DNA from: Clostridiales bacterium
GTDB taxonomy: Bacteria; Bacillota; Clostridia; Christensenellales; Borkfalkiaceae
Assembly: GCA_015069295.1 (NCBI GenBank)
Contig: SVIW01000001.1
Span: forward strand, 337,249-401,248
Direction: 5' to 3'
Length of the DNA stretch: 64,000 bases
Of the stretch, positions 34,162 to 40,401 are shown piece by piece (position 1 is the stretch's first letter; every line of letters begins with the position of its first letter). Both the position numbers and the translations under genes were made by a program. Under the pieces are notes generated by a model that saw nothing but the letters and a program-made list of their open reading frames with translations, had not been told where the DNA came from and searched no databases.

Positions 34162-35487
34162 TCAATTAAAAAACTCGTTATACGTCGCGCGCAAACACGC
34201 CTCGTAATCGTCGTTTCGAATCCCAACGATGATACTCAACTCGTTTGAACCTTGGTCAATCATATTGACGTTGATACCCGCGTTTGACAGCGCCTTGAAA
34301 AGACGGGCAGAAATACCGACGTTTCTCGCCATACCGTGCCCTACCGTCGCCACCAACGCAATATCGTCGTGCACGATGAGTCTATCGGGAGTCGCCACCT
34401 CGGCAATTTCCGCAATCACCTCGTCAAGCACCCCGTTTTTCAAAAACTGATTTTCAATAATCAAAGACATCGTATCGACGCTGGAAGGCAAATGTTCAAA
34501 AGAAATCCCCCGTCTTCCGATAACGTCCAAAACTCTTCTAACGTAGCCGACCTCTTCGTTCATAAAGGATTTTTCAATGGTAATCGAAGTAAAATCCTTT
34601 TTCCCCGCAACCCCGGTAACCACGTAGCTACGCACGCCGCGCGATTCCGTTTTTACGATATACGTACCCTTGTCTTCGGGACGGAAAGTGTTGCAAATAC
34701 GAATGGGAATCCCTGCGCTGCGCACGGGAAAAATCGATTCGCTATGTAATACGTTTGCGCCCATATACGAAAGTTCTCGAAGCTCTTGATAGGTAAGTTC
34801 GGGAATCCATTTCGGCGATTGAATAATGCGAGGATCGCAAGCGTAAAAACCGCTGACGTCCGTCCAGTTTTCATACAGCGAAGCCATCACGGATCTTGCC
34901 ACGATTGAACCGGAAATATCGCCGCCGCCCCGCGAAAAAGTTTTTACTTTTCCGTCTGCGCCCAAGCCGTAAAAGCCGGGAATTACCGCGCGGGGATATT
35001 TCGACAATACCTTTTCCCCAAGCTCGAAAGTCTTTTCCTGATCCAAAATTCCGTCTTTATTAAAACGCACGAATTCGGTTGCGTCCACGAACGGAACGTC
35101 CAAAACCGCCGCCATAATTTTAGCCGCCAAAAACTCGCCGCGAGAAGCGCAATAATCCCTGCCCGCGCCGTTTACGATTTCTTTTTCCGCTTCGTCCAAG
35201 CCCTCGCTAATACGCAAATCCTTGCCGATTTCCGCCTCGATATTGGTAAAACGAACGCGGATTTTTCCAAAGGTTTCTTGAAACGCCGCAAGGTTTCCCG
35301 CCTCGATTTCATCGGCGCACTTGTATAACAAATCGGTTACTTTAATATCCCCGCTAAAACGTTTTCCCGGCGCGGAAACCACCACGTAACGCCGCTCCGT
35401 ATCCGCCTTTACAATCTTAGCGGCGGAAAGAATAACGTTTCCGCTTGCCATCGACGTACCGCCGAATTTACACACCTTTACTCCCAT
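34162..35487 (-). CDS. lysC: aspartate kinase, monofunctional with ACT domains
   Basis: MGVKVCKFGGTSMASG; FSRGGGDISGSIVA; WTDVSGFYACDPRII; C-terminal ACT repeats. Confidence 0.92.
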   Translation of the reverse strand: MGVKVCKFGGTSMASGNVILSAAKIVKADTERRYVVVSAPGKRFSGDIKVTDLLYKCADEIEAGNLAAFQETFGKIRVRFTNIEAEIGKDLRISEGLDEAEKEIVNGAGRDYCASRGEFLAAKIMAAVLDVPFVDATEFVRFNKDGILDQEKTFELGEKVLSKYPRAVIPGFYGLGADGKVKTFSRGGGDISGSIVARSVMASLYENWTDVSGFYACDPRIIQSPKWIPELTYQELRELSYMGANVLHSESIFPVRSAGIPIRICNTFRPEDKGTYIVKTESRGVRSYVVTGVAGKKDFTSITIEKSFMNEEVGYVRRVLDVIGRRGISFEHLPSSVDTMSLIIENQFLKNGVLDEVIAEIAEVATPDRLIVHDDIALVATVGHGMARNVGISARLFKALSNAGINVNMIDQGSNELSIIVGIRNDDYEACLRATYNEFFN

Positions 35488-35536
35488 AAAAACTCCTTTC
35501 ACGAACGTCCGTCCGCTGCTTTCTTCTATTCTCTCT

Positions 35537-35641
35537 TTATACGTTTAACGCCAAAACGATCAAAAGCGCCAGCCCCAAACAAATGACTTTAATCCAAAAT
35601 TTCGAAATGAACAAGTTCTTTAAAAATCTACCGAATTTCAT
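35537..35641 (-). CDS. 34-aa single-TM ORF overlapping the cdaA stop (ATGA); resembles the CdaR/YbbR N-terminal anchor only
   Basis: MKFGRFLKNLFISKFWIKVICLGLALLIVLALNV*; not in ORF track; gene order cdaA-ORF-lysC. Confidence 0.65.
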   Translation of the reverse strand: MKFGRFLKNLFISKFWIKVICLGLALLIVLALNV

Positions 35642-36513
35642 CTGTTACCTCCACTGCGCTTTTTATCCGTCAACGGCATATCCTGCCAATAATAATCTTT
35701 CAACGCGTCCATCAGCATATCGTAATCGGCATAGCGTACGACGTTCCCCTGCTTGACGATAGAAATAATCCCCGTTTCTTCGGAAACCACCAGCGAAATA
35801 ACGTTTGCCACTTCCGTAATCCCGATCGCCGCGCGGTGGCGCGTGCCGTATTCTTTGGGATAGCTCGTCTTCTGCGTCAAGGGCAAGAAACAGCCCGCCG
35901 CTTGGATTTTATGCCCGTGGATAATCAGCGCCCCGTCGTGTAACGGCGCCTTGGGGAAGAAAATCCCTTCGATTAGCTGCGTAGACACCTCTGCATCAAT
36001 TCCAACCCCGCTTTGCAATACCTGCTTGGGAAGGCTGCCTTTGGATAATACAATCAGCGCGCCAACGTTGTTTTTCGACATATTTTGCAACGCCTTCACG
36101 ATATTGGCAATACAACGCTCGGTATCCGCCTGCGAACGGATTTCCGTACCGCCGCCCAAGCTCTTTTCCGTGCCCGTCGGCTTTTGCGTATGCACGTCCC
36201 AAAACATCTTCTTGACCTCGACGGCAAACAAAATTAAAAGCGCCGCCGAAACGAACAACACGTACAACAATAAGGTCTGCGACGTCATAATACCGCTGTC
36301 GAAAACGCGCATCGCCACGCCCGCGACAATCAACAACCAATACACCACCATCAGCTTGGTCGCGTCGTTATCCCGCAAAACCTTCGACACAAAAAAAACG
36401 ACCGTAAACAACAGAACGATTTCCATTGCAAACAGCACTCCAAAGGAGTTGAAAAACGCGTTTATCTTTTCCAACAACGTGGAAAATTGCACGCTCAACG
36501 CCAAAGTTCCCAT
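35638..36513 (-). CDS. cdaA: diadenylate cyclase CdaA
   Basis: N-terminal TM helices; DisA_N motifs LHDGALIIHGHKI and GTRHRAAIGI; ATG at 36513 after GGAGGCGAC. Confidence 0.94.
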   Translation of the reverse strand: MGTLALSVQFSTLLEKINAFFNSFGVLFAMEIVLLFTVVFFVSKVLRDNDATKLMVVYWLLIVAGVAMRVFDSGIMTSQTLLLYVLFVSAALLILFAVEVKKMFWDVHTQKPTGTEKSLGGGTEIRSQADTERCIANIVKALQNMSKNNVGALIVLSKGSLPKQVLQSGVGIDAEVSTQLIEGIFFPKAPLHDGALIIHGHKIQAAGCFLPLTQKTSYPKEYGTRHRAAIGITEVANVISLVVSEETGIISIVKQGNVVRYADYDMLMDALKDYYWQDMPLTDKKRSGGNR

Positions 36514-39432: not shown

Positions 39433-40401
39433 TTATTCTAAATACTGCGAAACCGTATACGACAATTTATCCAAAATCTCTTCCACGTCGCCAAACAACA
39501 TACAGCCCGCCGCGCGCACGTGCCCGCCCCCGCCGTATACCGCGGCAATTTTATTGACGTCAGCGTATTCTTTCGACCGCAAGGAAATTTTGTATTGCCC
39601 TTTCTTCACTTCCATAACCGAAGCCGCAACCTCTACGCTGTCCACGTTCAAAGGAAAGTCCACGAACCCTTCCGTCATACCGTTGTCCGCACCGCATTCT
39701 TCCATCGCTTGCTTCGTAATCACAATCACCGCAAACCGATCGTCGTGATAATAACGGATTTTCGACATCGTTTTGGCAAACAACGCCGCCCGCGCCTTGG
39801 CTTGCTTTTTAAACAGGTTGTATTGATAATAGCGGATATCCGCCCCTGCCTTGACAAGCTCCGCCGCCAATAAAAAGCACTCTTCATCCACGTCGTCGTG
39901 CGAAAAAATCCCCGAATCGGTCAATAACCCAATCAATAAATACTCGGCAATTTTCTTATTCAATTCTACCCCAAGCAATTTTATCAACGCCGCTACGTTC
40001 ATACAGTTTGCAGAACATTCGCGCACGTAATTATCGTTTGCATAACGGGTGTTGGAGATATGGTGATCGATATTGACAGTATCGATACGCAAGCGTTTCG
40101 CCTTTATAAATTCTTCTACCAAAGCCCCCAATCTTTGCTCGTCGCTGCAATCGACGCAAACGAACAAGTCATACCCTTCGCTTGGTTTTTTCTTCACCTT
40201 TTCAATTCCGTCGATAAACGCCAAATTAGAAGGTAAATCGGATTCAACGCATACCTGGTTAGGGATTTTTAAAAAATCAAGCGCCGTAGAAAGCGCCAAC
40301 GCGCTGCCGTAGGCGTCTCCGTCGGGGCGCATATGGCAAACGATTAAAACCCGTTTCGCCCTTTTCATTTTATCCGCAATTTTTTGCAAAGTATTTTCCA
40401 T
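39433..40401 (-). CDS. nrnA: DHH family phosphoesterase (bifunctional oligoribonuclease/PAP phosphatase-like)
   Basis: CHMRPDGDAYGSALALSTAL; VCVDCSDEQRLG; NIDHHISNTRYANDNYV; GGGGHVRAAGCML. Confidence 0.9.
   Translation of the reverse strand: MENTLQKIADKMKRAKRVLIVCHMRPDGDAYGSALALSTALDFLKIPNQVCVESDLPSNLAFIDGIEKVKKKPSEGYDLFVCVDCSDEQRLGALVEEFIKAKRLRIDTVNIDHHISNTRYANDNYVRECSANCMNVAALIKLLGVELNKKIAEYLLIGLLTDSGIFSHDDVDEECFLLAAELVKAGADIRYYQYNLFKKQAKARAALFAKTMSKIRYYHDDRFAVIVITKQAMEECGADNGMTEGFVDFPLNVDSVEVAASVMEVKKGQYKISLRSKEYADVNKIAAVYGGGGHVRAAGCMLFGDVEEILDKLSYTVSQYLE

Follow-up and report, generated by a model that had tools for sequence, protein, structure and literature searches.

Behind the diadenylate cyclase gene cdaA, the 64,000-nucleotide stretch of DNA analysed here (the window) encodes a microprotein of 34 aa that is almost certainly an old, selected and sensor-less derivative of CdaR, as judged from its descent and from the selection acting on it. 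As a whole, the locus is best explained by this anchor-only derivative acting on CdaA, a reading to which we would give a probability of about 0.6.

The cdaA locus

The cdaA gene (35638..36513, minus strand) encodes a product of 291 aa with a DAC domain (PF02457, E 8e-40) and, judging by eye from hydropathy, three hydrophobic N-terminal segments. Its TGA stop lies inside an ATGA at 35638-35641, the ATG of which (35641-35639) opens the microprotein reading frame (35537..35641, minus strand), as the initial annotation had noted. The frame reads MKFGRFLKNLFISKFWIKVICLGLALLIVLALNV, 34 codons followed by a stop, and is preceded at a distance of 5 nt by the Shine-Dalgarno sequence GGAGGT (35647..35652, minus strand). 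The product has the build of a CdaR anchor without YbbR: a basic, amphipathic and putatively cytoplasmic segment (MKFGRFLKNLFISKFWIK; 35588..35641, minus strand) leads into one membrane helix (35540..35587, minus strand), in which two small residues, C21 and A25, follow the last Lys by three and seven positions (+3 and +7). The basic segment follows the positive-inside pattern, and the N-terminus is therefore predicted to lie inside. No Pfam or NCBIfam family matched the microprotein above cut-off. The Pfam match to phospholamban (E 0.042) was below cut-off and was attributed to composition. A promoter scan at the cdaA locus gave a score that was not above shuffles.

Downstream, the microprotein adjoins lysC (34162..35487, minus strand), an aspartokinase gene with AA_kinase and ACT domains, whose ATG at 35487 lies 49 nt past the microprotein stop and which has an alternative start, GTG, at 35502. 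The initial annotation took this arrangement as a feature of the locus, which is true mainly within this genus, but most relatives have a DUF1015-like gene in that place. The source genome is 1.62 Mb in size and 96% complete. Relatives of its CdaA occur in gut Clostridia including Candidatus Borkfalkia and Candidatus Scatosoma, and Borkfalkia is placed within Christensenellales in the NCBI taxonomy. The family of the microprotein-bearing genomes, which we take to be Borkfalkiaceae, is referred to below as the Borkfalkiaceae-like family.

Descent from the CdaR anchor

A resemblance of the microprotein to the basic N-terminus and transmembrane helix of CdaR had been seen by eye, and profile methods now confirm it. 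A search profile built solely from microproteins of the Borkfalkiaceae-like family gave 37 matches in the six frames of 248 genomes of the order, comprising 27 short and 10 long open reading frames (ORFs). For every short one with both coordinates listed, the position was immediately behind cdaA. The long ones are ORFs of 429-501 aa from YbbR-positive genomes that were matched at their N-termini, and for 6/10 the coordinates confirmed that the match and the YbbR domains share one ORF. Beyond its own family, the profile recovered short ORFs behind cdaA in f32 and f19, and long ORFs of YbbR-positive families in f11, f13 and f31. Direct profile-profile alignment with hhalign gave E 3.5e-10 for microproteins of the Borkfalkiaceae-like family against CdaR anchors of sister families and E 1.5e-11 for the microproteins of other families against CdaR anchors, and neither score was matched by any of 200 block shuffles in which the basic-helix-tail layout was preserved.

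The microproteins and the CdaR anchors have the motif N-x3-K-x2-(A/S)-x3-(A/G) in common. At the +3 and +7 positions counted from the last Lys, 76-80% of the microproteins of the Borkfalkiaceae-like family have small residues, as do 67-78% of other microproteins and 95-100% of CdaR anchors, and these two positions are the only feature shared across the helices. Helical periodicity of conservation was significant in the CdaR anchors (p 0.03), borderline in the microproteins of other families (p 0.08) and not significant in the microprotein helix of the Borkfalkiaceae-like family (p 0.54). A search of solved structures returned no match for the anchor, nor for a full CdaR of the order.

Loss of YbbR in the order

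The initial annotation described the 34-aa peptide as having no YbbR domains and left it to be seen whether full YbbR repeats occur in relatives or elsewhere in the genome. PF07949 (YbbR) is absent from the peptide, from its source genome and from all 151 genomes of the Borkfalkiaceae-like family; in the order it is present in 90/248 genomes. As the positive controls of these searches behaved as expected and the stop is at the identical position in dozens of species, there is a negligible probability that this assembly has lost the rest of a full cdaR to a sequencing error or a local truncation, and this reading, with the peptide itself conserved, was rejected.

When the DNA following cdaA was read at 80 loci across the order, three states emerged. 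A full CdaR of about 414-453 aa is found in nine families (f4, f5, f7, f11, f13, f17, f21, f23 and f31), the anchor only in seven (f1, f9, f18, f19, f20, f29 and f32) and neither in eight (f3, f6, f8, f10, f14, f16, f24 and f30), and from a few f32 and f1 members the anchor is missing as well. A single f16 genome (G342) has a YbbR match at a contig end, possibly through contamination. A CdaA tree of 125 rows was built by a quick search, with SH-aLRT as its sole support measure and with f20 and f30 on long branches. In it, a branch with support 100 separates the full-CdaR rows from all other rows, and only 6 changes are needed for the three states. Outside the order, class-wide profile matches are ORFs of 249-505 aa in all but two cases, which argues for full CdaR as the ancestral state; the two short ORFs (G672, at E 3e-4, and G651, at E 6e-4) seem to be chance matches. 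Taken together, the six changes and an ancestral full CdaR point to one ancestral truncation of CdaR in the order followed by about five losses. Across a broad group of gut Clostridia, sequence comparison thus shows CdaR cut down from some 430 to some 35 aa, with the membrane helix as all that is kept.

A separate observation concerns the near-complete small genomes (0.8-1.3 Mb) of family f28 (G177, G200, G220, G238, G255, G269, G281, G293, G304, G315, G325 and G335), in which no CdaA match was found and from which CdaA-type c-di-AMP synthesis has possibly been lost.

Conservation among relatives

Conservation of the short ORF, which the initial annotation had raised as a question, proved to be extensive. 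An ORF of 31-49 aa with a basic N-terminus and a single helix lies behind cdaA in 86 of the 90 genomes of the Borkfalkiaceae-like family with readable sequence there, the exceptions being L100, L102, L109 and L135. The same was found at 63/63 readable loci in a separate scan of genome_contigs, some of which may come from genomes also in the set of 90. By manual inspection, the microprotein of L116 is present but shifted by ~120 nt, and that of L152 is present but lacks a strong Shine-Dalgarno sequence. The Shine-Dalgarno sequence, start and length are nevertheless retained over the seven anchor-only families. In 35/90 family genomes the start and the stop of cdaA overlap, in the form of ATGA or GTGA. 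The median net charge ahead of the helix is +4 (n=144 microproteins), and the C-terminus is reached a median of 17 residues past the last Lys/Arg.

The gene that comes after the microprotein in the 90-genome set varies, being DUF1015-like in 46 genomes, lysC in 22 and another gene in 18. In most YbbR-less families a DUF1015-like gene (PF06245) stands directly behind cdaA, or behind cdaA and the microprotein (L215-L274 in the YbbR-less families, together with most loci of the Borkfalkiaceae-like family), and its start often overlaps its upstream neighbour. DUF1015 could be linked to c-di-AMP.

Selection on the microprotein and on CdaA

Maximum likelihood codon estimates for 45 distinct microprotein sequences of the genus gave an omega of 0.11-0.115, and omega = 1 was rejected by 315 log-likelihood units (lnL -2892.7 vs -3208.1); the median pairwise Nei-Gojobori omega was 0.30. 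These values indicate that the microprotein is under purifying selection and, with the same layout in nearly all family genomes, that its ORF is not a product of chance. In the same species, CdaA had an omega of 0.127 in its membrane domain and 0.043 in its DAC domain, which puts the microprotein under the same degree of constraint as the CdaA membrane domain. At the amino-acid level, identity was 0.64 in the microprotein, compared with 0.55 in the CdaA membrane domain and 0.88 in the DAC domain.

As selection acts on the amino-acid sequence, it is very unlikely that the ORF is a leader or coupling ORF of which the translation, rather than the product, matters for the cdaA mRNA or the next gene. 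The ATGA overlap with cdaA and the closeness of the next gene in several lineages would suit such a role, but the downstream gene differs between genera and the product is homologous to a protein domain.

The loss of YbbR has been accompanied by a release of the CdaA membrane domain, which in the window lies at about 36210-36480 on the minus strand. Within families, the ratio of membrane-domain to DAC-domain divergence is 1.0-1.6 where CdaR is full and 2.2-3.5 where YbbR is absent, whether or not the microprotein is present, an increase of about twofold across all YbbR-less families. Although membrane-domain differences of around 0.75 approach saturation, the trend is the same in less diverged families (membrane/DAC differences of 0.42/0.14 in f14 and 0.44/0.19 in f32 vs 0.27/0.23 in f21 and 0.12/0.10 in f23). 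Similarly, the CdaA_N profile (PF19293) has no match in the window CdaA at E up to 1, whereas full-CdaR relatives match at about 37-38 bits. One f32 protein matched weakly (25.6 bits), and the others tested were unmatched. The DGA and RHR motifs were intact in 125/125 CdaAs examined.

This relaxation in all YbbR-less families, at least five losses on the CdaA tree and the four family genomes from which the microprotein is missing are what would be expected of a relic, that is, an anchor that lingers after YbbR loss with little or no function and disappears piecemeal. Such a history is improbable given an omega of 0.115, the firm rejection of omega = 1, the translation signals and length kept in seven families and the conservation in all but those four of the 90 family genomes. 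The initial annotation had offered a remnant of cdaR as one possibility; its descent from cdaR stands, but purifying selection and retention in seven families mean that it is more than a decaying remnant.

The c-di-AMP genes of the source genome

The wider c-di-AMP system of the source genome looks reduced but catalytically intact. An intact glmM (TIGR01455, 540 bits) is found outside the cdaA operon, on contig C15 and not on C1. No c-di-AMP riboswitch was found in the source genome or near the locus, and the genome contains no GdpP-type GGDEF domain and no PgpH 7TMR-HDED domain. It does contain TrkA_C domains, which are possible c-di-AMP receptors. A DHH-DHHA1 phosphoesterase of the NrnA/DhhP-like type (39433-40401, minus strand), which is part of a same-strand cluster of infB, rbfA, DHH, comEC, holA and cdaA, is a candidate for the breakdown of c-di-AMP or pApA.

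A proposed role beside CdaA

The contact between CdaR and CdaA runs through the transmembrane domains of both proteins (PMC10243994, PMC8573169), which occur as natural CdaA-CdaR fusions in some streptococci (PMC10243994). CdaA activity depends on oligomers (PMC10243994, PMC8573169), and CdaR has been reported as an activator in some studies and as a repressor in others (PMC8573169). Based on this transmembrane contact and oligomer dependence, the microprotein would be co-translated with CdaA via the ATGA overlap, insert N-in/C-out and pack its small-x3-small face on the CdaA membrane domain. It would then serve as a sensor-less subunit of the CdaA oligomer, with a part in its assembly, its stability or its basal activity, and what the YbbR domains once supplied as extracellular input would be gone.

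On balance, we lean towards the microprotein binding and modulating CdaA, in line with the minimal transmembrane regulator that the initial annotation had offered as its other possibility. Its position behind cdaA is fixed though the next gene varies. Against a role at CdaA, eight families and a few members elsewhere lack the microprotein with their CdaA motifs intact, and in YbbR-less CdaAs the membrane domain evolves fast and CdaA_N matches are weak or missing. Since the membrane domain is fast with or without the microprotein, the old constraint has not been kept by it; as such, the microprotein does not hold the old CdaA interface fixed and may bind a re-evolved one. Alternatively, it could be a functional single-helix protein with another partner, such as a transporter or a protease, and a merely inherited linkage to cdaA, in keeping with a CdaA membrane domain that is no more constrained where the microprotein is retained. 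We regard this as unlikely, because the microprotein stays with cdaA while other neighbours change, shares bases with the stop codon of cdaA in many of the genomes and stems from a CdaR whose known partner is CdaA (PMC10243994). Returning to action on CdaA, it stands at about even odds that a one-time loss of the whole CdaR sensor, in the common ancestor of a large gut-clostridial clade, turned the ~35-aa helix into a subunit dedicated to CdaA within the membrane, where it sets oligomerisation and the basal output of c-di-AMP.

Comparison with known systems

The microprotein resembles CdaR/YbbR proteins in being encoded immediately behind cdaA with an overlapping start and in having a basic N-terminus and an N-in helix, as well as in the motif N-x3-K-x2-A/S-x3-A/G and the homology of the anchor profiles. 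It differs from its full relatives of 414-453 aa in having no YbbR domain and thus no extracytoplasmic sensor, and as this is the defining feature of YbbR proteins, it is not classed as one although it descends from CdaR. The locus also departs from the cdaA-cdaR-glmM operon in that glmM is not part of the operon. The streptococcal CdaA-CdaR fusions (PMC10243994) provide evidence of a CdaR anchor working beside the CdaA membrane domain, but they keep YbbR, whereas here the anchor is a separate YbbR-less peptide.

A literature search, in which subscription papers were scarcely covered so that its negatives are weak, found no YbbR-less CdaR, no diadenylate-cyclase microprotein and no work that takes apart what the helix and the YbbR domains of CdaR each contribute. 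The microprotein is a further case of a conserved microprotein arising by domain loss, here behind the cyclase of an often essential second messenger, and it makes the role of the helix testable apart from the sensor domains. If the proposed action on CdaA is true, the regulatory role of the anchor is separated from extracellular sensing.

KdpF-type accessory subunits, which are about 30 aa long, have one helix and are encoded in the operon of a membrane complex, are similar in size, helix number and operon position, a likeness that serves as a lead only; their origin is different, as the microprotein arose from a regulator by domain loss. A further comparison is offered by the eight CdaA-only families of the same order, which share the divergent membrane domain, the intact DGA and RHR motifs and a genome with no YbbR, but have no microprotein after cdaA. 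With the helix kept in seven families and dropped in eight, the order provides natural material for testing the helix alone.
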